Below are positions 43,002-64,000 of a stretch of 64,000 nt of DNA, piece after piece. Origin of the DNA: Halosimplex rubrum. GTDB taxonomy: Archaea; Halobacteriota; Halobacteria; Halobacteriales; Haloarculaceae. How positions within the stretch are numbered: the first letter of the stretch is position 1; the number at the start of each line of letters is the position of its first letter. A program made the translations under genes and the position numbers. The DNA is taken from positions 2,666,001 through 2,730,000 of the forward strand of contig NZ_CP058910.1 of the NCBI RefSeq assembly GCF_013415885.1. The letters are read 5' to 3'. The notes under the pieces were generated by a model that had not been told where the DNA came from, made no database searches, and saw only the letters and a program-made list of their open reading frames with translations.

Positions 43002-44449
43002 GGTCGCGTCGCAAAGCGGTCTAGAGTTTGCCTCTGGTGCTCTCAATTGAGAGGTCACAGCTCATTGCTGTTTTGGTCGATCGCTGGAGCAGTTCGTCGA
43101 GGAACGACTGGTAGTGCTCTGGATCGGCGTACTTCACCAGCCGAAGCTGGAGTATCGCCTCTAACCCCTCCGTTGTCCAGCGCATCCACTGGTTCTTGCA
43201 CCGCTTGCTGACTTCGCCCATCAGCCGTTCGACGGGGTTCGAGGTCCACGGCACCTCGAACCCCTCGACAGCCTGCTCGGCAAACGTCACGATCGACGGC
43301 AGCCACCGCTGTAGATACCCCGCAGCTTTCTCTGACCCGAACTGATCCAACTGCCACGCTGTCTTCTCGATACGCTCGGTCGTTCGCGCGATCCGCTCGC
43401 GGATCGCCGCGAACTCCTCGTTTGGACGGTGCTTGGCGACCGAATTCTTCAGATGGAACACCTCGTCGATCACCTCCGAGACGATCTCGTTCCGCCGATC
43501 CAAGGAGAACACGCCGTCGTCCCAGAGGTTGTAGTCCAGCGTTCGGCCGACGTGGACGAGATCAAGTTGATGATTACGGTTTTCGTCGGTAAATGCCGTG
43601 ACGATACCCTCATCAGCGTCACTGACGACCGTCGCGTCGTCAGTGACTGCGTCCATGTCATCGAGTTTGGCGGCTGTCTCGTCCCAGTCAGCGTTGATCG
43701 AGAGATCCAGCAGAGAGCGTGATTCCTTGGCAGTATCTTCGCCGAGCGTGGCCTGGACGGAGTGGTACGCGCGGTCGTCGTCTTGGCTGTGACACTTCGT
43801 GCCGTCAGGAATAACGGCGTCAGCGTCTGTGTCAGCGACACAGTCTGGAAGGAACTGCTTGAGCTTGTTGCCGTACTCTTTGGCGCGACGATTGATGGTG
43901 GTCGGCGACGGCATCTTCGAGAGGATGCCGTCGCCGTGGTCAGCAGCGTCACGATAGCTGACCGAAGTAGCGAGATCGACGCTCTTGGCGGCGATGTCCT
44001 GCTGATAGCGGTTTTGCCCGTCGAAGCTGAGAACATCTTCGACGGGCCGGAAGTAGCTGGATTCGTCGTGGTCAGCGGCGGTGTCTTCGACGTAGTGAAG
44101 GTCGAATTCGTGCTCACCGGCGGTTGTGACGGCTGTGCGGGTGTCAGTACCGGCGCGTTGGAATCGCTGATCACCATTGCCGTGAGCGTGTTTCTCACCA
44201 CAGAGCGCCTCGACGCGGCTCGCGTCGAGGCTCTCGACCATCGATTCGAGCAGTACAGATTCGACGTTCTGCTCGGTAACGAATTCGGCAAGCGTGGCGA
44301 GCGGTACCGTTTTGTCCTCGTCGATGCTAATCGTGAACCGCACGTCGATTGTGGCGTGCATGGGACACCTCTTGGGTGGACACCAGAGGCGTCCCGTTCC
44401 TCACGGGAGCCAGTTGCTACTGAACTCTAGAGGACTTTGCGACACGACC
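43002..44449. mobile_element. ISH6-type insertion sequence, 1,448 bp
   Basis: Terminal inverted repeats of 27 bp match at 23 positions: the left end begins GGTCGCGTCGCAAAG (43002) and ends TCTAGAGTT (43028); the right end (44423-44449) reads the same in reverse complement with changes at four positions. The flanks share AATCTT (42996-43001 and 44450-44455), a 6-bp target duplication; I recall 8 bp for this family, so this point deserves a check. Length and transposase fit ISH6 elements as I know them. It splits a small gene in the orc operon. Confidence 0.88.
43021..44361 (-). CDS. ISH6-family transposase
   Basis: A 446-residue transposase, apparently full length. Acidic residues that could form the catalytic set lie in AVIPDGTKCHSQDDDRAYHS, TVVSDADEGIVTAF and the C-terminal VPWTSNPVERLMGEVSKRCKNQWMRWT, a strongly conserved-looking block typical of this haloarchaeal group. 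The stop codon lies inside the left inverted repeat. No frameshift is seen, so the element may still be active. Confidence 0.88.
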   Translation of the reverse strand: MHATIDVRFTISIDEDKTVPLATLAEFVTEQNVESVLLESMVESLDASRVEALCGEKHAHGNGDQRFQRAGTDTRTAVTTAGEHEFDLHYVEDTAADHDESSYFRPVEDVLSFDGQNRYQQDIAAKSVDLATSVSYRDAADHGDGILSKMPSPTTINRRAKEYGNKLKQFLPDCVADTDADAVIPDGTKCHSQDDDRAYHSVQATLGEDTAKESRSLLDLSINADWDETAAKLDDMDAVTDDATVVSDADEGIVTAFTDENRNHQLDLVHVGRTLDYNLWDDGVFSLDRRNEIVSEVIDEVFHLKNSVAKHRPNEEFAAIRERIARTTERIEKTAWQLDQFGSEKAAGYLQRWLPSIVTFAEQAVEGFEVPWTSNPVERLMGEVSKRCKNQWMRWTTEGLEAILQLRLVKYADPEHYQSFLDELLQRSTKTAMSCDLSIESTRGKL

Positions 44450-50762: not shown

Positions 50763-52329
50763 ATGACATCCTCCCGGGCGTGAATGCCGGGGTTTCCTCC
50801 GTGGGAGTCTCAGCCGGTCTAGGACTCGCCGGAGGCAACATTCCCGTCACGGTGGACGGTACTCGGGTTTGTGCGCTGTTCTTTGGGACTTTCGTGAGGG
50901 TGTGGTGTCCCCGACCAGTTGTGGTCGTCCCACTGGAACCGCACGGGCCGTGCCATCGACCTGACTGCCTGCTCTGTGTGCCGCTTCAAGAACGTCTCTG
51001 ACGCTGTGAGGTCGGCGTGCCCCTCGAATCCACACGGACACGTTAGTGTGTCCTGATGTCGTTTCGTTCGGTCTGTTGAACCGCACTGCGGGCACTCTTG
51101 GCTGGTCCACGCTTCCGACCGGACTTCGACCGAGATACCGTATTCCTCAGCAGTACATGTTAGCCGCTCAGTAAACTGCTTGAACGCCCAGAAGTTGTGG
51201 GTCTTGGCGTTGGTTTCGACCGACCAATGTGTGTCCAGCACGTCGGTCAGTCCACCGATATACACCGTGTCTACGCCGTCCTCATACAGCCGTTCGATTA
51301 GGTCACGACACAACGCTTCCTGTGCGTGGTCGCGGCGGCGGGTTCGCTTCCGATACAGCCGTCGGATACGCTCGCTACTGTATTGGCCGTCCTGTAGCTT
51401 GGACTGTAACCGGGCGATTTCTCGCGTTGTCTCACGGAAGCGGTTGAACAGGTCCCGACCTTCGTACAGGTATTGGTCGCCGGTCGTGGTGGTACAGGCG
51501 ACGAGATTGTTCGCACCAATATCCAGAGCGGCCTTCTCGTCGGCCAGTGGAGTCTCCCGTGCATCTGTAACAGTCACGGGTTGGGAAGCTCGGAAGATGC
51601 TGTCAGTCTCGTCATACCACAGGTCCAATCGTCCTTGTTTCTCGTAGTCGGGCCAATTCGGGTCGCCAGCGATTTCGAGTCGGAGACGCCCGGTGTGATC
51701 GTATCGGTCTTTCAACTCGCTCCCAACAAGTATCTCAAGCCGGGATCGCTCGCCCCACTCAACAGTGTATGCGTCGTTGCGAATGACGCCTTTGAGGACA
51801 CGCCCATCGTCTTTGTTACCACGGAAGCCCGGCGGTTCCGGGTGTTCCGTAACGGATGTGTTCGACTCGTCGTGATACGCCTTCTTTGTATCGAAGAACC
51901 CGCGCCACGCTTCGCTGTTTTTGCGTATTACCTGTTGGGCAGTGGATGCGCCGAGCACACCTTTGTACTTGCCTTCGAGACTGCCGGTGTCGGCGTTCCA
52001 CACGTCCTCGTCCTCAAAGCCGTCTTCGTCGTTGTAGCGCATGAGGCGCTGATAATTGACCTCATTCCAGAGAGCGGCGGAAGCGTCCAACAGGTCCCGT
52101 AGCAGTTGCTCTCCCGTATCGGAGAGGGAACGCACGGCGAACGTGTTGGTGCGCTTCATCAGCCATTTCCAGATATGTTCGTTTGGAACTTGAACGTCAG
52201 CCAACCACGGTGAAAGTAGAACCCAATCATCTCGTTGGAGACTCAAGACCAACATTGATGCAGTTATTCTCATCGGAGCTTACGTGATTCACGCCCGCCG
52301 TGAACGGCAGGACTCTCTCGCTGTCAAAG
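50763..52329 (-). mobile_element. IS200/IS605-type element carrying only tnpB, 1,567 bp
   Basis: The limits come from the broken gene: on the minus strand TTCAC (flank) meets the element at 52329, and the element ends GATGTCAT before the flank resumes CTGTGG at 50762. Removing it restores an open frame with no target duplication, as expected for this single-strand transposition family, and TTCAC is then the target/TAM candidate. The ends have small imperfect hairpin sequences (CACGCCCGGGAGG near the right end; CCGTTCACGGCGG near the left). No tnpA is present. Confidence 0.85.
50819..52159 (-). CDS. tnpB: TnpB, RNA-guided nuclease-family protein (possibly inactive)
   Basis: A 446-residue TnpB. 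The RuvC-I Asp is in ALDIGANNL (Asp213), the zinc ribbon CPQCG/CPCG spans Cys356-Cys376 and the RuvC-III Asp is in [10 protein letters not shown] (Asp383). The stretch that normally carries the RuvC-II Glu (as in IxxEdL) reads [10 protein letters not shown], with Gly302 at that place, so cleavage may be lost unless another Glu substitutes. The start at 52159 ([12 protein letters not shown]) is the family-like one; a longer in-frame reading exists. The guide RNA would come from the tnpB 3' end and the right end. Confidence 0.9.
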
Positions 52330-55314: not shown

Positions 55315-56532
55315 TTAGTCAACTACTGGTTGGACTGGCAGCCGTTCGAGTCGGCGATGGCACGGGATACAGAGAGTCAGCAGGTTACTCGGTACATCTG
55401 CATCGTCGACCGACTGGTCTGGGTCGTCGTAGAACCGGCGTCGAGGAATCCGGTGGTGAACCGGGAGATCACGTCCGAATTTCTCGCGGTGACCTTCGCG
55501 GTCCATACCGCAGCGCAGGCAGGACTCGTTGTCACGGGTGATGATCACCTCACGAATCTGTGGCCAGTTCGAGCCAAACGGAACTGTCTCAGTATCTGAC
55601 TGACGGTAGTTTTCTAGATAGTCCGGGTCGGCCGCTTGAAGGGCCGTTCGCCACGTTCCGAATTCACGCTGATACGGATCGATGGTAAACTTCCCGTGTT
55701 CGTTTATTTCCGTTGTTGTCGGTGGGTGGCCCAGATCATCCGCGACAGCCCGCAGTTCGGCTAATAACTCCTCCCGTGGGATTCGCCACCGCTGATTCGG
55801 CTCGAAGCCGGCAGCTCGGAGAGCTTCATTCCACGAACCGAATCGCTCCTGATAGACTGCTGCACTCCATTTCCCTTGGTTCCGCATCTCATCCTTCCGA
55901 GGGACATGGCCTAGCTCTTCGGCGAGACTGTTGAGTTCGGATATCAGATCCTCCTCGCTCACATCCCATACGGAGTGGACTTCCAACCCCGCCTGTCGAA
56001 GCGCACGATTCCAGGTTCCAAACGCTCGCTTGTACGAATTCGAGGTGTAGGGGCCACTCCGGTCCATTTCATCTGTTGTGGGCGGTCGACCCAGTTTCTC
56101 AGCGAACCCCTGTAAGGCAGTAAGGAGTTTCCCCTGGGAGAGGTTCATCTCGACGTTCGGTTCAAAACCGGCCGCCCGTAGTGCTGAATTCCACCCTCCA
56201 AATCGCTTGCAGTATGTCTTTACCGAATACTCTCCGTGAGTACTGTATTCACGCTCTGATGGGGTTCCTCCCACGATGTCGGCAACTGATTTGAGATCAG
56301 TAAGAAGGTCCTCTTCAGGCGTCACTGGTCGTCCATTTGGATCGTTCGTACCGGTTTGAAGTCCGGCAGCCTGGAGTGCATTATTCCACGACCCGAACCG
56401 ATTTCCGTACGTCTTCGAAGCGTGAGGTCCTGAATCGTCCATCTCACTCTGCGACGGGGGACGACCGAGTTTCTCAGCGAACTTCCGGAGCCGGTTGAGG
56501 AGTTCATCATTTGAGTACAGCTTCTTTCCCAT
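55315..56532 (-). CDS. HNH nuclease with five homing-endonuclease-associated repeats
   Basis: A 405-residue protein. Five copies of a roughly 48-residue unit (about 10-57, 75-122, 136-182, 194-242, 255-301) follow the pattern of a helix, LGRPPSxxEM, then YxxRFGSWNxALRAAGF; this is the homing-endonuclease-associated DNA-binding repeat. The C-terminus is an HNH nuclease with CxxC (Cys338, Cys341), His359-His360 and CxxCH (388-392). It probably cuts or binds specific DNA. An upstream element and an inverted repeat lie within 185 bp of the start. Confidence 0.92.
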   Translation of the reverse strand: MGKKLYSNDELLNRLRKFAEKLGRPPSQSEMDDSGPHASKTYGNRFGSWNNALQAAGLQTGTNDPNGRPVTPEEDLLTDLKSVADIVGGTPSEREYSTHGEYSVKTYCKRFGGWNSALRAAGFEPNVEMNLSQGKLLTALQGFAEKLGRPPTTDEMDRSGPYTSNSYKRAFGTWNRALRQAGLEVHSVWDVSEEDLISELNSLAEELGHVPRKDEMRNQGKWSAAVYQERFGSWNEALRAAGFEPNQRWRIPREELLAELRAVADDLGHPPTTTEINEHGKFTIDPYQREFGTWRTALQAADPDYLENYRQSDTETVPFGSNWPQIREVIITRDNESCLRCGMDREGHREKFGRDLPVHHRIPRRRFYDDPDQSVDDADVPSNLLTLCIPCHRRLERLPVQPVVD

Positions 56533-56723: not shown

Positions 56724-56945
56724 TTACTCTTCGTTCTCACGCAGCTCTTCAGCCTTCCACTTGAGCCGGCGCAGAATCTGCGTTCGGTTCTGGTGGGTGT
56801 TCTCGTAGGCGACACACTCCTGAAGAGTCTCCATATCGGGAATCGTCACGATACCGGCCTCGACCAGTCGGTAATTCGATGCTTCGAGACGCATTTCGGG
56901 TGGGAATTCGTCGTCACTCCCGTCGCTGATCGTGGATTGTTCCAT
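56724..56945 (-). CDS. Small protein of unknown function (73 aa)
   Basis: A 73-residue acidic protein (EQSTISDGSDDEFPPEMRLEA) with a likely helical C-terminus (QNRTQILRRLKWKAEELRENEE). No family known. Its stop is followed closely by the 42-bp inverted repeat, and a diverged copy of the palindrome element precedes its start. Confidence 0.6.
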   Translation of the reverse strand: MEQSTISDGSDDEFPPEMRLEASNYRLVEAGIVTIPDMETLQECVAYENTHQNRTQILRRLKWKAEELRENEE

Positions 56946-56952
56946 CTCTATA

Positions 56953-57011: not shown

Positions 57012-57173
57012 TCAAGCCATCGCGTCTGGGAACCGATCTCGGAGTGTACCCTCTCGCTCTTCGACCCGCTCGACTTTCTCCCGCAGCTCGTCGCTGACAC
57101 GCTCAATACTTGCCAGCGCTCGCTCGCCGCCTAACGAACCTTGTGAATCGTCGTCGCTGTCAGCTTCCAGCTG
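57012..57173 (-). pseudogene. 3' remnant of a coiled-coil gene at an insert boundary
   Basis: On the minus strand an open frame of 53 codons, QLEADSDDDSQGSLGGERAL then ASIERVSDELREKVERVEER, ends at TGA (57012-57014) but has a stop just before it (TAA at 57174-57176) and no ATG or GTG start. The codon pattern and helical sequence look real. It ends where the sequence turns A/T-rich, so it is likely the tail of a gene whose 5' end was lost when the Mrr-like gene came in. Confidence 0.5.
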
Positions 57174-57236
57174 TTACTATAGTATTTGGAACAATAGGCT
57201 CGAACAGATACTCTCCTCTTCCCAAAAAGAGAGAAA

Positions 57237-59282
57237 TTACGTCGGATTTGGAATTTGACTCTCTGAGAGTTTTTGTATTACATCACGTCCGGATAGTAGC
57301 TGTACCTCTACACCCTCTGTTTCCATAGCAGCTCGCCTCGCGTCCTGCGTAAATCCAGACGATGTTGCGACAACACAGACATCTGCGCCCTCTTGTACTG
57401 TCGAGCCGATTGCGTTTCGGACTTCTGGACCAGACACGTTGCCAGCTCCATTAGGATCGTAGCGTTTGGCCTGAATAGCGATTGTTCGCTGGCCCTTACG
57501 TGCAATAGCGTCAATTCCCCGATCTCCCGATTGCTGTGTAACTTGGACGTCGTATCCTTTCTTTTGATAGAGCTGCCCCAGAACCTCTTCAAACTGCGTT
57601 GGCGTTAACGAAAGCAGATCCGATGGCTGCCACGTCGAATCAAGTTGAGCCATTACTTCATCTCTGATAGATTTGATGTGAGTGTAGTCGTCAGTGGCGC
57701 GGGCTTGGTCGAGACGATTCTGCACCTCAGTCGGATCGATAGAACTGTGCGTCAGGTCAGTAGTTGTGAACGTCTCTGCTAATTCCTGCTCGGCGACCCA
57801 CGCTTCGGCCTTCACCATCGCCTTCTCGATGCCATCTATATCTGCTTCCTGAACCGCATTACGGGCGTTCTCGATGGTTGTCGCCTGGGCTTGGCCAGCT
57901 GATAAGGGATGAGACGACCCACTGTTGCTTCGAAGTGGTTCGGTCTGGGCTGCGAAATCTTCAACCGCCTTTGCTTGCTCGCAGAATTGATTGAGAGTTC
58001 CTACAGTCAAGATGGTATCAAGACGTTCCCAGATCGCTGTTGGCTCAACCACTTGGCTATCGACACGAACAGCCAGCTTACTTTTCCCCGAATCTGGCGG
58101 ATTACTACTGGGCTGACTCCATCGTTCGACGGTGGTTCGTGCTTCCTCAAATCGATTAATCTCTGTAGCAGCCTGTTCAAGCTGGTCGTCTTTCGAGGAT
58201 GGGAAGTTAGCAAGGGGTTTGTCAAGCAGCTTGGCTCCATCATAGCTTTGGCCACGAATTCTAACATCAAAGCCGCTGTCAATCCCCGTAAGCACGTCAT
58301 TTAGGTCGTTTGCGGTTGCGGTATCGTTGTCAGTCCACGTCTGGGCTGCGAGTGATTGAACCTCTGTTCTTGTAACCGGTAACTCCCCAAAGGATAATCT
58401 CGAGAGCGTTTGGTTCAATACCGCGAACTGTTCAAGCCGTTGGCTCCAATCCTGGAGATTCTCACGTTGGGCTGTTTGAATAGACTGTACAACTGGTGAT
58501 TCTCCCTCGGCTGAAGCATCTATGTCGAACTCGTTGTCGAGCGTCTGTGCTCTTGAACAGAGATCTTGGCGCCATTGTCGATCAGCGTAGCTTTTCACCG
58601 GTTCAGCGAGACGATTACGAACCGGCTGGCTGAACGTCGGTAGTGTTGTACCTAAGAGAACTATTGCGGCGAACAATCCCCATGCCCGTGGCCGTTCCCA
58701 GAATGGTCGATAGACGGTGTAGGTCCGAAGTGTTTCAAAACGAGTGGTTCCGGCATTTGACGCCGCGTAATAGTATAACGTCGCCTCCGTAGGTCCAATC
58801 CCGTTCGGTGCGATTGACGCTGGCAAGTCTAGAACTCGTTCGAACGTCGCATATTCTCCTTGGTCGTATGTGGAACTGTTCGCAAAGAGGACTGTCCCCT
58901 CTCTAGCCGCCCGTTCGGGCCGCCAAGATGTAGGTGCGGCGACAACGGCGACCTCAAGTGGCGCCCTTGGTGGGCTCTCTGTGTTGGCATATGGATTCCC
59001 CCAACCGGTCTGCATCCGTATCCGGACGCTTCCGTTTGTGGCAATGCCAGTTGTTGGAGTCGTGATTTGGATATCGAAAGCGCCGTACTCCGTTTCACCA
59101 CCTGTAGTCGTATACTCTAGCGGCACTGTCGTTGAACGCGTTACAGGATCGACTTGGTCGAACGCTCCTGTGACAGGAACTGAATAGACAAGTAGACATA
59201 CTCCGAGGATGACGAGGATGGCCCGTGTCGCTTTGAAAGGAAAATCGGGTAGGTATTCGGAACGGTCCGTGGGGATCTCCAT
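57237..59282 (-). CDS. Membrane-anchored Mrr-type restriction endonuclease
   Basis: A 681-residue protein. A first membrane helix lies at about 19-40 (ATRAILVILGVCLLVYSV), an outside domain at about 41-197 rich in beta-type Thr/Ser sequence, a second helix at about 199-217 (AWGLFAAIVLLGTTLPTF), a long cytoplasmic helical region at 220-555, and a C-terminal Mrr-cat domain at 559-681: LTPTQFEEVLGQLYQKKGYDV, GDRGIDAIARKG (Asp591), IAIQAKRYDPNG (Gln604-Lys606). The catalytic PD-(D/E)xK residues look intact. Coding DNA is A/T-richer than the neighbours. Mrr nucleases cut methylated or foreign DNA; the membrane-and-outside layout suggests a sensor at the envelope. Confidence 0.88.
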   Translation of the reverse strand: MEIPTDRSEYLPDFPFKATRAILVILGVCLLVYSVPVTGAFDQVDPVTRSTTVPLEYTTTGGETEYGAFDIQITTPTTGIATNGSVRIRMQTGWGNPYANTESPPRAPLEVAVVAAPTSWRPERAAREGTVLFANSSTYDQGEYATFERVLDLPASIAPNGIGPTEATLYYYAASNAGTTRFETLRTYTVYRPFWERPRAWGLFAAIVLLGTTLPTFSQPVRNRLAEPVKSYADRQWRQDLCSRAQTLDNEFDIDASAEGESPVVQSIQTAQRENLQDWSQRLEQFAVLNQTLSRLSFGELPVTRTEVQSLAAQTWTDNDTATANDLNDVLTGIDSGFDVRIRGQSYDGAKLLDKPLANFPSSKDDQLEQAATEINRFEEARTTVERWSQPSSNPPDSGKSKLAVRVDSQVVEPTAIWERLDTILTVGTLNQFCEQAKAVEDFAAQTEPLRSNSGSSHPLSAGQAQATTIENARNAVQEADIDGIEKAMVKAEAWVAEQELAETFTTTDLTHSSIDPTEVQNRLDQARATDDYTHIKSIRDEVMAQLDSTWQPSDLLSLTPTQFEEVLGQLYQKKGYDVQVTQQSGDRGIDAIARKGQRTIAIQAKRYDPNGAGNVSGPEVRNAIGSTVQEGADVCVVATSSGFTQDARRAAMETEGVEVQLLSGRDVIQKLSESQIPNPT

Positions 59283-59299
59283 ATTAGATTGCTATTTGA

Positions 59300-59319
59300 T
59301 TACCAGAACAGTCTGGTAA
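59300..59319. promoter_or_regulatory. Palindromic operator candidate for the Mrr-like gene
   Basis: TTACCAGA, a 4-bp spacer, and TCTGGTAA form a perfect inverted repeat that ends 17 bp before the ATG at 59282, where the promoter of a leaderless or short-leader transcript would lie. A repressor or activator bound here would control the nuclease. The regulator is not identified; the bat-type protein at 60363-61040 is a nearby candidate only by position. Confidence 0.65.
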
Positions 59320-59342
59320 TTCTGACGGTTACTGTGTTGGGG

Positions 59343-59474
59343 TCACGAGTCGGTGTCGTCGGTGCGCTCCTGTCGGTCGTTGTATCGCTCCAGTTCACGC
59401 CCGATTTTCTCGAGCGCCTCGACACCTCGTTCGAGGAGCTGGTGGGTGGCTCGCGCCAGCCGAAGTGTCTCCAT
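59343..59474 (-). CDS. Very small charged protein (43 aa)
   Basis: A 43-residue helical protein, METLRLARATHQLLERGVEA to DRQERTDDTDS. Its ATG overlaps the stop of the DUF6166 gene by one base (TGATG), which is good evidence for a real coupled gene. Unknown function. Confidence 0.6.
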   Translation of the reverse strand: METLRLARATHQLLERGVEALEKIGRELERYNDRQERTDDTDS

Positions 59475-60160
59475 CAGTGCTCCCCCTCCCGGGGCTCGAT
59501 GAGGCCGTTGCTTTCTTCGGCGAGTTCCCGGATTACCCGTTCCACGTCAGCCTCTTCGGCAACCGTCCGATGTGCGAGCGGGGCATGATATGCCCGGTCG
59601 CCTTGGCTGCAGAGTACGACCAGCCACTCGTCGCTCCCATCCCCGAGTACGATGTAGTGGTCGCGATCAGCGCGCTGGAAGACCCGCCGGTCCGGGCGAG
59701 AGACGGCTCGCCAGTTCTCGGGGAGCGTCGGTGACGGCCGTCCACCGTCGGCGAGGGCGACGACGTCGTCGGTAAGGGTCGCCATCGCGGCGTCGATCTC
59801 CTCGCCGGGGAGGTGCCAGCACGCCGCGGCACCGTCGCACTCCAGCTGCGAAACCACCTGATTCCGGAACGCGATGTAGTGCTCACGGGCGAACTGCTCA
59901 TCGTCGTAGTAGTCGAGGAGGAGCGCGCACGCGAGCTGGGCGGGCCCGCTACCACTGTACCCCCACTCGAATCCGCTTGGACTGTGGTTAACGAGGTCGA
60001 GACTGCGCTCGAGGGAGAGTCGCCGATGCTCCGAGAGGTTCAGCACGACGGCTTGGCCGTCGACGCGGAAGCCGACGTATTCGACTGCGTCTCGGTGAGC
60101 CTGACCTGGCGATGCGACTGAAACGGATTCCGAACTGGCCATAGGTACATTCCCGTTCAT
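59474..60160 (-). CDS. DUF6166-family protein
   Basis: A 228-residue protein. AVEYVGFRVDGQAVVLNLSEH, HSPSGFEWGYSGSGPAQLACALLLDYYDD and FRNQVVSQLE are the DUF6166 signature, a family found on plasmids and phages in bacteria and archaea. The second half (ADGGRPSPTLPENWRAVSRPD onward) is extra and unplaced. Start at ATG 60160; an in-frame ATG at 60142 is equally possible. A palindrome element lies 24 bp before 60160. Confidence 0.82.
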   Translation of the reverse strand: MNGNVPMASSESVSVASPGQAHRDAVEYVGFRVDGQAVVLNLSEHRRLSLERSLDLVNHSPSGFEWGYSGSGPAQLACALLLDYYDDEQFAREHYIAFRNQVVSQLECDGAAACWHLPGEEIDAAMATLTDDVVALADGGRPSPTLPENWRAVSRPDRRVFQRADRDHYIVLGDGSDEWLVVLCSQGDRAYHAPLAHRTVAEEADVERVIRELAEESNGLIEPREGEH

Positions 60161-60183
60161 CGTTGCTCGCGGGTGGTTCGGTG

Positions 60184-60214
60184 ACCCCCGCACCCCCTCT
60201 CGGGGGTAATAAAC
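60184..60214 (-). promoter_or_regulatory. Shared T-tract/GC-palindrome element, copy 6
   Basis: Minus strand: GGTGTTTATTAC, then CCCCCGAGAGGGGGTGCGG. The T-tract here is a good TATA box (TTTATTA), suggesting that the palindrome lies between TATA box and transcription start. Confidence 0.6.
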
Positions 60215-60362
60215 ACCACCAGCCCAGAATTGTCCTTGAGTTACAACGGATCCGCTGATTTGCTCTACGAGGGTGGAGCTGCTCAGACCATCTCCTGTTG
60301 GAGTAATCCCTGTAAACACGGGAGTCCCGAACGTTAACTACCGGGGAAGCATACGTCTATGT

Positions 60363-61040
60363 ATGACAATTACGACTGAGTTTTCCCTCAGTTCACCGTC
60401 TCTCCCGCTGGTCAGTATTACTGAGAGACTCCCACCGGACCAAATTGAGTGCGTCCATGGGCTCTGTTTCGAACAGGACGCCCGGATGTTCATCGTCAAA
60501 ATCGATTCCGAAGTCAACGTTTCAGAAGCCGACTTGGAATCGCTGGACGAAGTCCAAGAGGCGACAACGATCGGCTACGCGGGCGAGCAAACCGTCCACA
60601 ACCTTACGATAGACCTCGACGACGCGATCTCGGACGTATTCAGTGGGGGCAGTTCCGTAGCCGCAAAGCTCGAACCGACCGTCGTCACACCGGACGGATG
60701 GTACGAGAGGAAAGTGTACAAGGATCGTGATGCGTTCATGGAGTCCCGGACTCGCTGTGAGAACCACGGGATCTCGCTCGACCTTATCTCGATGACCTCC
60801 ACTTCCGCTGCATCGGACGATTCTATCCCGTTTGGGTTGACTGAACGGCAATACGAGGCGCTGACACTCGCGCTCTCTCGTGGCTACTACGAGAGCCCAC
60901 GCCAGACCTCGACTGAGGAGCTCGCTACGGAACTCGGCATCTCACAACCCTCGCTCTCGAGACTCCTCAGGCGGGGTGAGCGTCAGCTACTCTCTTCGGC
61001 ACTCCAAACACAGGAGCACTTAAACACAGTTTCCAATTAG
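60363..61040 (+). CDS. Bat-type (HTH_10) transcription regulator
   Basis: A 225-residue regulator. The C-terminal LTERQYEALTLALSRGYYESPRQTSTEELATELGISQPSLSRLLRRGERQLL is an HTH_10 domain; the N-terminal 140 residues form the sensing part common to this class. The ATG at 60363 (MTITTEFSLSSPSLPL) is the family-like start. It is followed 52 bp later by two aldo/keto reductase genes, which it may control. Confidence 0.88.
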   Translation: MTITTEFSLSSPSLPLVSITERLPPDQIECVHGLCFEQDARMFIVKIDSEVNVSEADLESLDEVQEATTIGYAGEQTVHNLTIDLDDAISDVFSGGSSVAAKLEPTVVTPDGWYERKVYKDRDAFMESRTRCENHGISLDLISMTSTSAASDDSIPFGLTERQYEALTLALSRGYYESPRQTSTEELATELGISQPSLSRLLRRGERQLLSSALQTQEHLNTVSN

Positions 61041-61092
61041 CACCGTCACTATCTGACCGTAGGCCCTCGGATTTGGTAGACAGAGACCTACG

Positions 61093-61944
61093 ATGAAGAC
61101 AGTTGAACTCAACAACGGTGTGGAGATGCCGATTCTCGGATTCGGCACGTATCAAATCGAGGACCTCGACGAGTGCGAACGAAGTGTCTCGGAAGCCCTC
61201 GAAACAGGGTATCGACTCATCGATACTGCGGCGTCGTATGAGAACGAGGAGGCGGTCGGGCGGGCAATCGAAAAGAGCGACGTGCCGCGAGACGAGGTGT
61301 TCGTGACGTCAAAACTCTGGGTACAGGACACCGGCTACGAGGCTACGTTGGACGCGTTCGAGCGGTCGTTGGACCGACTGGGCCTCGACTACCTCGACCT
61401 GTTTCTGATTCATCAGCCCTACGGCGACGTCCACTGTTCGTGGCAGGCTATGGAAGACCTCTACGAGGACGGCAAAATCAGGGCCATTGGGGTCAGCAAC
61501 TTCCACCCCAACCGGGTGATGGACCTCATGGTCCACAACGACGTCGTCCCGGCAGTGAATCAGATCGAGACGCATCCCTTCTACCAGCGAACCGAGGATG
61601 CAGCATTCCTCGAGGAACACGGCATCCAACACGAGTCGTGGGGGCCGTTCGCCGAAGGCCAGAACAACATCTTCGAGCACGACGTGCTGACCACGATTGG
61701 GGACCGCCACGGTAAATCCGCTGCACAGGTGACACTGCGATGGCTCATTCAGCGCGACATCGTCGCTATTCCGAAGTCGGTCCACGCCGACCGGATCGCC
61801 GAGAACTTCGAGGTCTTCGACTTCGAACTCACCGACGATGAAATGGAGACGATCGCCGAACTAAACGAGGGCGAAAGCCAGTTCTTCGACCACCGAGATC
61901 CGGAGATGGTGAAGTGGCTGGGGGAAGCTGAGCGCGAGACCTAA
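61093..61944 (+). CDS. Aldo/keto reductase
   Basis: A 283-residue NAD(P)H-dependent oxidoreductase of the 2,5-diketo-gluconate-reductase-like branch: [36 protein letters not shown] (Asp, Tyr), [12 protein letters not shown] (Lys), [13 protein letters not shown] (His) and the cofactor end [19 protein letters not shown]. Active-site residues are present. Substrate unknown. Confidence 0.93.
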
Positions 61945-62082
61945 GTCTCGATTACAGAGCGATTCCCTTCGGCCAGAACTAAACATGACTGCGGTACGCG
62001 TCGGTCACAGTTACTTAAACGCGGTATTTCGTTAGCATCACACCCAAGCGATTCACGTCCTTTGTTCAAACCGAGTACGACG

Positions 62083-63096
62083 ATGGAATACACGACTCTT
62101 GGTTCGACCGGAATGGAGGTCAGCCGCATCTGTCTCGGCGGGATGAGTTTTGGCGTGAGCGACTTGCACGACTGGACGCTCGACGAGGAGGGCTCGCGCG
62201 AGATCATCGAACGCGCGATTGATCTCGGTATCAACTTCTTCGACACGGCGAACGCGTACTCGAACGGGGAGTCCGAGGAGATCATCGGGGACGTTCTCGG
62301 AGAGTACGACCGCGACGAACACGTCGTCGCCACGAAATGCTATTTCCCCACGAACCTCTTCTCCGATGCGGACGAACCACACCCGAACGCGTCGGGACTC
62401 TCCCGGAAGACTATCGAACAGGAACTGGAGAATTCGCTAGACCGACTGGGGATGGATACCGTTGACCTCTACCAGATCCACCGGTGGGACTACGAGACAC
62501 CCATCGAGCAAACGCTGCGTGCCCTTGATGACGCAGTACGACGCGGGAAGGTTCGATACATCGGCGCGTCGTCGATGTGGACTCACCAGTTCGCCGAGGC
62601 ACTGTACACCAGCGAGCACCTAGATATTGAACAGTTCGTGACGATGCAGGACCACTACAACCTCGTCTACCGCGAAGGCGAGCGGGAGATGTTCCCCTTC
62701 TGCGAGAAAGAAGACATCGGCGTCATCCCGTGGAGTCCGCTCGCACAAGGATACCTCACCCGCCCCCACGAAGAGATGACGGCAACGACCCGCGGCGAAG
62801 AACTCACCGAGACGCACGAGGAATACCGGATGGGCGGCGGACCGGCCGTCAACGAGCGAGTTGAGGAACTCGCTGCGGAGAAGGGGGTGACGATGGCACA
62901 GCTCTCGCTGGCGTGGTTACTCCACCAGGACGTCGTTGATGCGCCGATCGTCGGCACCACGAGCGTCGAACATCTCGAACAAGCCGTCGAAGCACTCGAT
63001 ATCGACCTGACGGATTCAGAGCTAGAGTACTTGGAAGAACCGTACGAGCCCCTGCCGATTGCTGGCGCTCCTGTCCCTGGGTCGGAAGCCAACTAG
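62083..63096 (+). CDS. Aldo/keto reductase (YajO/Tas-like branch)
   Basis: A 337-residue oxidoreductase: MEYTTLGSTGMEVSRICLGGMSFG, FFDTANAYSNGESEEIIG (Asp, Tyr), VVATKCYFP (Lys), DLYQIHRWDYETP (His), PWSPLAQGYLTRP and the cofactor loop VGTTSVEHLEQAVEAL. It is a different subfamily from the previous gene. It starts at the ATG at 62083. The three genes 60.3-63.1 kb run the same way. Confidence 0.93.
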   Translation: MEYTTLGSTGMEVSRICLGGMSFGVSDLHDWTLDEEGSREIIERAIDLGINFFDTANAYSNGESEEIIGDVLGEYDRDEHVVATKCYFPTNLFSDADEPHPNASGLSRKTIEQELENSLDRLGMDTVDLYQIHRWDYETPIEQTLRALDDAVRRGKVRYIGASSMWTHQFAEALYTSEHLDIEQFVTMQDHYNLVYREGEREMFPFCEKEDIGVIPWSPLAQGYLTRPHEEMTATTRGEELTETHEEYRMGGGPAVNERVEELAAEKGVTMAQLSLAWLLHQDVVDAPIVGTTSVEHLEQAVEALDIDLTDSELEYLEEPYEPLPIAGAPVPGSEAN

Positions 63097-63130
63097 CGCC
63101 TCAGTAATCTGAGGACTCAGTCACTCCACA

Positions 63131-63814
63131 ATGAGAGAGAATACCCTAAGCACTTCGAACGATTCAGAGATCGATAGAACGAGTCGGCGTAAACTGCTAG
63201 GGGCAGCTGCAGTGGCAGGAGGGGGCTTCCTTGCGGGATGTATACACCAGAGCGGGTCCGAGACGGAAGAGCAGAATACCCCCTCCCAAACTGCGGATGA
63301 GGACAGCGTACTGATCGTGTTTTTCTCTCGTACGGAAAACACCCAAGCTGTCGCTGAAATCATTCAGCAAGAAGTGGGTGGAGAGCTGTTCAAAGTGTTG
63401 CCGGCAGACCCGTACCCCGTCGATTACGACACGCTCGTCTCACAGGTAGACCAAGAAAACGAAGAGGGCTACACCCCGCCTCTCCAATGTAACGTGGAGA
63501 ATATCGAGGCGTATGACACCGTATTTTTCGGTGCCCCGACGTGGGATATGCAGTTGCCACCGCCGATGAAGACCTTTCTGAGTGAACACGATTTGGGCGG
63601 GAAGACTGTGGTCCCGTTCAATACGAATGGTGGGTATGGCGTCGGGAGTAGCTTTCAAACGATAGAAGACCGCTGTCCAGATGCCGACGTACGGGAGGGC
63701 TTCTCCACGAGGGGTGGGTTGGAGAGAGATGGTGTCTACCTGGCGATCAAGGATGATCGGAGAGCGGAGGTCAGGGCCGAAGTGACTGACTGGTTGCAGA
63801 GAATTCAGATGTAA
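63131..63814 (+). CDS. Tat lipoprotein flavodoxin
   Basis: A 227-residue protein. DRTSRRKLLGAAAVAGGGFLAGC is a twin-arginine signal with a lipobox cysteine, so the protein is anchored outside the membrane. The rest is a flavodoxin fold with the FMN-phosphate loop FFSRTENTQAVAEIIQ, the FGAPTWDMQLPPPMKTFLSEH segment and a closing helix. An external flavodoxin implies surface electron transfer with an unknown donor. It begins 34 bp after the second reductase gene. Confidence 0.92.
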   Translation: MRENTLSTSNDSEIDRTSRRKLLGAAAVAGGGFLAGCIHQSGSETEEQNTPSQTADEDSVLIVFFSRTENTQAVAEIIQQEVGGELFKVLPADPYPVDYDTLVSQVDQENEEGYTPPLQCNVENIEAYDTVFFGAPTWDMQLPPPMKTFLSEHDLGGKTVVPFNTNGGYGVGSSFQTIEDRCPDADVREGFSTRGGLERDGVYLAIKDDRRAEVRAEVTDWLQRIQM

Positions 63815-63834
63815 GCTCAGTCTTGCCAGTGTTG

Positions 63835-63867
63835 CGGCCGCACCCTCTCAGGGATTCACCAAACAGG
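63835..63867 (-). promoter_or_regulatory. Shared T-tract/GC-palindrome element, copy 7 (orphan)
   Basis: Minus strand: CCTGTTTGGTGAAT, then CCCTGAGAGGGTGCGG. It faces left, but the gene to its left runs the other way, so its gene is missing. It could mark the place where the reductase/flavodoxin cassette was inserted. Confidence 0.5.
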
Positions 63868-63927
63868 ACGGCGTAGCGTTCGGCAACGTATTTGGCAGTT
63901 GCAACGTACTGTCCACATAATTGAGGA

Positions 63928-64000
63928 TGGCTGTACTGGACGATCTCTCGGGGTTCGAGTTCGAGGACGTGATGGAGGACGTGTTCCGCAACCTCGGCTA
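63928..64000 (+). CDS. Start of an Mrr-like restriction endonuclease (partial)
   Basis: The window ends inside a gene beginning MAVLDDLSGFEFEDVMEDVF and then RNLGY. This matches the opening of a haloarchaeal Mrr-like nuclease family as I know it (the F-E-x-x-x-x-x-x-F-x-x-L-G-Y helix that comes before the catalytic strand). Only 24 codons are available, so the call is tentative. Confidence 0.6.

Follow-up and report, generated by a model that had tools for sequence, protein, structure and literature searches.

A predicted membrane-anchored Mrr nuclease with an outside domain, carried in the variable slot of a plasmid-type element of haloarchaea

Why would a cell fix a restriction-type nuclease in its membrane and join it to a domain on the outside? 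This question is raised by a gene of Halosimplex rubrum that lies near the end of the 64,000-nucleotide stretch analysed here (contig NZ_CP058910.1, positions 2,666,001 to 2,730,000; hereafter the window, whose own positions are used below). A preliminary description had read the gene product as a membrane nuclease that might serve defence, and we examined its architecture, selection, genomic setting and relatives.

Architecture and constraint of the 681-residue protein

The coding strand of 57237-59282 is the minus strand, a detail left out of the preliminary description, and it holds a single open reading frame of 681 residues with the following parts:

57237..59282, minus strand: gene for the predicted membrane-anchored Mrr nuclease, 681 aa (open reading frame and near-identical copies)
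59166..59222, minus strand: predicted transmembrane helix 1 or signal-anchor, residues 21-39 (hydropathy 2.33 over 22-40)
58689..59165, minus strand: outside domain, residues 40-198, predicted beta-sandwich (low-confidence model; dN/dS 0.08)
58632..58688, minus strand: predicted transmembrane helix 2, residues 199-217 (hydropathy 1.51 over 200-218, moderate; charges)
57633..58631, minus strand: predicted cytoplasmic helical linker, residues 218-550 (structure model; dN/dS 0.26-0.28)
57273..57614, minus strand: Mrr_cat nuclease domain, residues 557-670, with D591, Q604 and K606 (Pfam; Foldseek)

Because basic residues precede helix 1 and follow helix 2 (R222, R224 and K230), the protein fits a topology in which both termini are cytoplasmic and the loop between the helices lies outside, membrane anchoring being predicted here by hydropathy and charge alone. 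Alternatively, helix 1 could be removed as a signal peptide (VTG-A); the protein would then have a single anchor, with its nuclease still in the cytoplasm. The C-terminal domain matches the Pfam family Mrr_cat (PF04471; E=1.7e-25, 89.8 bits against a cut-off of 21), and no Pfam match was obtained elsewhere in the protein. D591 closes the motif GDRGID and is followed by Q604-A-K606, and these D...QxK catalytic residues are invariant across the homologues checked. The best Foldseek match of the nuclease domain was the restriction enzyme MspJI (E=1.2e-4).

AlphaFold2 models built on a shallow alignment had mean pLDDT values of 46.6 and 53 and, at this poor confidence, were beta-rich at residues 47-190 and helical at 219-548, with eight beta-strands predicted in the outside domain (about 40-198), again at low confidence. 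Structure comparison of the outside domain placed beta-sandwich folds first, among them the FnIII fold of RbmA at Z 8.1, a value within the tool's stated noise range, since a Z of about 8 can reflect merely a common arrangement. Given the low-confidence model and a score inside the noise, an RbmA FnIII-type fold was not accepted and we claim no fold for this domain. A search by sequence found no solved structure matching the protein.

The membrane half is genuinely coding, because residues 1-228, compared between the window and the copy at L014, differ by 14, 5 and 53 substitutions at codon positions 1, 2 and 3, and because dN/dS is low; together these rule out a spurious N-terminus. By the same measure, the outside domain is under constraint equal to that of the nuclease (dN/dS of 0.06-0.07 for the latter), while the linker drifts. 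In a homologue from Halorientalis marina (L018:15685-17046, NZ_CP095490.1, WP_246989573.1), RefSeq places the start at about residue 229, and both helices and the outside domain are therefore missed. The architecture given in the preliminary description thus held up closely: two helices were recovered, the second a moderate one, its outside domain of roughly 155 residues came out at about 158, beta-rich and conserved, the long cytoplasmic part was modelled as helical, if poorly, and the intact Asp591 and Gln604-Lys606 were found at exactly those positions.

Relatives, cassette and carrier element

Seven copies of the gene, 85-100% identical and one of them frameshifted, were found in six genomes from at least four families. 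The protein is 100% identical in Haloferax marisrubri and 88% in Halarchaeum rubridurum; Halorientalis marina has two copies at 87%, Natrinema gari has one at 95% with a one-base frameshift near residue 136, and a further copy is present in genome G035. The gene is sporadic, occurring in about 1% of the sampled genomes, and the identical protein in Haloferax, together with 85-95% identity in further families, indicates that it has been transferred recently between haloarchaea. A profile search with residues 1-550 in 392 genomes from the order and 393 from the phylum returned no other convincing relative, and a wider family for the N-terminal part was rejected, the remaining matches being weak and at chance level. 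No viral contig in IMG/VR or the phage records carries the gene, so that it is tied to no particular virus; a viral origin was likewise set aside, as no relative extends past the Mrr domain in these collections.

The preliminary description had taken known Mrr enzymes to be soluble, a premise that fails in haloarchaea: of 94 Mrr_cat open reading frames sampled from haloarchaea of the same order, 52 are predicted to contain one or more membrane helices, in a sample that leans to high-scoring matches and with helices called by a simple hydropathy rule. The membrane type makes up 5 of the 15 sequence clusters in this sample. Nearly all of these proteins have the nuclease at the N-terminus and the helices at the C-terminus. 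N-terminal helices occur elsewhere in Salinibaculum (one helix, 180 aa) and in Natronococcus occultus (about six helices, 749 aa, nuclease C-terminal; L020:3408-5657). The domain-order search proposed earlier thus found the helix-ectodomain-helix front to be, as far as prediction goes, a rare feature limited to the 681-residue family among the sampled open reading frames. The haloarchaeal membrane Mrr proteins point to a broader stock that is annotated simply as "restriction endonuclease", one annotation lacking the membrane half altogether, and we found no description of membrane-anchored archaeal Mrr proteins in the open-licence literature.

The gene sits in a slot bounded by conserved neighbours:

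56729..56947 (approximate), minus strand: 73-aa open reading frame flanking the slot, conserved in relatives
57017..57173, minus strand: 3' remnant, about 52 codons, of the slot gene of sister elements (phrog_13083 family; by similarity)
57174..59332, no strand assigned: exchangeable cassette made up of just the gene and its promoter (break points of DNA homology)
59299..59320, no strand assigned: inverted repeat with perfect 9-bp arms around a 4-nt spacer, likely operator (sequence, all copies)
59474..60319, minus strand: DUF6166 gene, conserved and bordering the slot on its upstream side (Pfam; relatives)
63927..64000, plus strand: 5' end of the second Mrr gene, which codes for 454-456 aa and runs past the window end, with N-terminal Mrr_cat and C-terminal transmembrane helix

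DNA homology to sister elements without the gene ends at 57173 and resumes at 59333, leaving a cassette of 2,159 bp (2.16 kb) that contains the nuclease gene, its promoter palindrome and nothing else. This palindrome, ATTACCAGA-ACAG-TCTGGTAAT, lies 17-38 nt upstream of the ATG and recurs in every gene copy, where the arms are kept and the spacer and flanks vary; no second copy exists in the 4.48-Mb genome with two mismatches allowed. It is likely the operator of the nuclease gene. The remnant at 57017-57173 reads DSQGSLGGERALASIERVSDELREKVERVEEREGTLRDRFPDAMA-stop and matches the end of the 386-401-aa phrog_13083-family gene that fills the slot in sister elements, indicating that the cassette displaced an earlier gene. 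Other sister elements hold a TnpB-like gene or HTH genes in the slot, and the sister plasmids mostly lack the nuclease gene. The GC content of the cassette, 0.516, is the lowest in the 96-kb stretch scanned, against 0.59 for the element and 0.70 on the chromosome side, and its GC3 is 0.49 against 0.84 in the nearby ArdC gene. A promoter palindrome and DNA richer in A/T than its surroundings had both been noted before and were borne out.

The carrier is a haloarchaeal conjugative-type plasmid with the nuclease gene in its variable slot. The H. marina carrier plasmid (NZ_CP095490.1) encodes VirB4, TrbL/VirB6, a T4CP-like ATPase, primase, PolB, Cdc6 and ArdC, and holds near-identical copies of the nuclease region at about 239400-273000 and 352700-386300, 113 kb apart. 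In H. rubrum the element sits within the single 4.48-Mb contig and retains PolB, Cdc6, TFB, ArdC and DUF6166, the ArdC antirestriction gene lying a few kb from the nuclease gene; the 182 kb examined here contained none of the transfer genes seen on the H. marina plasmid.

Several other features of the element were recorded. A complete CBASS operon lies on the same island beside the element's Cdc6 gene, outside the window (L161:10701-15414; genome 2798701-2803414), and encodes a SMODS cyclase (PDLC00822, E=1e-139), an E1-E2/JAB fusion and a TIR-SAVED effector. In a sister element, a PD-Lambda-4-like NTPase of 1233 aa adjoins the same cargo slot (L145:5177-8878). The family of the second Mrr gene (63927-64000; L004:921-2291) is widespread and highly similar on haloarchaeal mobile elements, often adjoining DUF6166; in the window, an insertion of about 3.6 kb that is absent in relatives (60216-63837: an HTH_10 regulator, two aldo/keto reductases and a flavodoxin-like protein) separates the two. 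A TnpB-like (OrfB_IS605) gene at 50819-52273 separates element segments that are adjacent in relatives. Two HNH proteins of the element, about 43% alike (55315-56532 and L004:2939-4159), carry repeated homing-endonuclease-associated domains, five in the former. Two 446-aa open reading frames (43021-44361, minus strand, and genome 2767646-2768986, plus strand) share their first 30 residues and lie inverted about 58 kb apart; they could be insertion-element copies or island repeats.

Proposed role and competing explanations

We favour, by a modest degree, a membrane-held DNase against invading DNA, resembling SNIPE and ShdA with an added ectodomain. In this model, a cargo-gene enzyme would be fixed in the cytoplasmic membrane by two helices, or by one after removal of a signal peptide, with the beta-domain outside and the Mrr nuclease in the cytoplasm at the end of a helical stalk. 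The nuclease would cut foreign DNA, of a virus or a rival plasmid, during its passage through the membrane or its release from it. The tether would hold the enzyme away from the host's own chromosome, and docking on, or sensing of, an entry site or receptor would fall to the outside domain. By analogy with SNIPE and ShdA, location would supply the discrimination of self from non-self, and the enzyme would owe its placement or its triggering to the outside domain. The DNase activity, its target and its activation are parts of the model that we infer, as are phage as the target and the sensor role of the outside domain, the last being the least certain.

The model is favoured because the Mrr_cat domain keeps all its catalytic residues with MspJI as its best fold match, because the outside and nuclease domains are equally constrained, and because the gene is a recently transferred, stand-alone cassette with its own promoter that replaced an earlier gene in a variable slot. 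It also draws on the CBASS operon of the island, the PD-Lambda-4-like NTPase of the sister element, the nearby ArdC gene, and the order of membrane anchor, coiled coil and nuclease shared by SNIPE and ShdA. Counting against it are the poor structure models, the N-terminal 550 residues without informative relatives, the lack of a viral carrier and the frameshifted N. gari copy. The earlier defence reading is thus supported in part: the data bear out the membrane anchoring, the intact catalytic residues, the external domain and a mobile setting rich in defence genes, and the experimentally studied anti-phage nucleases SNIPE and ShdA lend it plausibility, while its premise of soluble Mrr enzymes has to be given up. 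The protein likely serves defence or plasmid exclusion, and exclusion of plasmids, or an attack on whatever DNA comes in, suits the data no less than a phage trigger does.

The outside domain may, somewhat doubtfully, be the receptor of a restriction nuclease. On recognising a virus, a mating partner or a transfer apparatus, it would signal through membrane and stalk so that Mrr is activated at the point of DNA entry. In plasmid exclusion or competition, the protein would instead guard the element that carries it, keeping out mating partners or related conjugative plasmids and not viruses, with the outside domain recognising transfer apparatus or mating contact; this is rather unlikely, for the gene lies in a cargo slot outside the transfer region and is missing from most sister plasmids, unlike a core exclusion gene, even though the carrier plasmid type has VirB4, TrbL/VirB6, a T4CP-like ATPase, PolB and Cdc6, ArdC is a few kb away, and ShdA also lowers transformation (PMC10270631). 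A tethered type IV restriction enzyme, cleaving modified DNA like MspJI or Mrr, would use its membrane part for localisation alone, and its outside domain would be structural. The top fold match to MspJI, the matches of the Mrr domain to the PADLOC models mREase_IV and PDC-S02, and the fact that most haloarchaeal membrane Mrr proteins carry helices without an N-terminal ectodomain speak for such an enzyme, yet no modified-base reader domain was recognised in the linker and selection on the outside domain is as strong as on the nuclease, exceeding the needs of a spacer, so we regard it with some scepticism.

Two further roles seem remoter. Membrane nucleases of DNA uptake exist, and the protein might similarly process nutrient DNA or cell-fusion DNA, or act in envelope stress; a sporadic, mobile gene in the cargo slot of a defence-bearing element, with no uptake genes beside it, makes such housekeeping highly improbable. 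A toxin or abortive-infection effector, in which damage sensed by the outside or membrane part would release the nuclease to kill the infected cell, would suit a single-gene cassette with a possible operator and the toxicity of anchor-less nuclease parts in SNIPE and ShdA (PMC13190303, PMC10270631); the cassette holds no antitoxin-like partner, and we consider this role improbable.

Comparison with known systems

The 681-residue protein has the nuclease domain and catalytic residues common to Mrr/type IV enzymes (PF04471) and MspJI, and the studied members of that group are not known to be membrane-anchored with an outside domain. Against PADLOC-DB, no system matched over the full length of the protein, the Mrr end alone matching ZorD, PDC-S02 and mREase_IV. 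The tail-anchored haloarchaeal Mrr of the 456-aa type (L004:921-2291), encoded by a neighbouring gene in the same plasmid family, also combines Mrr_cat with a helix, but has the nuclease first, the helix last and no outside domain. The predicted membrane nucleases of COG4741, earlier guessed to guard against foreign DNA (PMC1189080), share an N-terminal helix and a cytosolic PD-(D/E)XK domain, but are YraN-like minimal nucleases with no ectodomain and no long linker.

The closest likenesses are to two bacterial defence proteins. SNIPE (PD-lambda-1; DUF4041 and GIY-YIG) is held by a membrane anchor and cleaves phage DNA while this is being injected; with the anchor removed, its nuclease makes it toxic (Saxton et al. 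2026, PMC13190303). Like the present protein, it is a single gene product with a membrane anchor near the N-terminus, a central coiled coil and a C-terminal cytoplasmic nuclease; it differs in having GIY-YIG rather than Mrr, DUF4041, and one anchor with a short outside N-terminus in place of the roughly 158-residue domain between two helices. ShdA of Shield, from Pseudomonas, is an RmuC nuclease bound to the membrane, and a form lacking the anchor could not be cloned (PMC10270631); it shares the N-terminal anchor, helical middle and cytoplasmic PD-(D/E)XK-type nuclease and can act alone, but has an RmuC domain and no reported large outside domain. Pfam detected neither DUF4041 nor GIY-YIG nor RmuC (PF02646) in the 681-residue protein, its nuclease being Mrr_cat, and we therefore do not assign it to SNIPE or Shield. 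Membrane-held nucleases that discriminate self from non-self by location and not by sequence were demonstrated only recently, and in bacteria; the present protein would extend them to an archaeon, with another type of nuclease and a large domain exposed outside.
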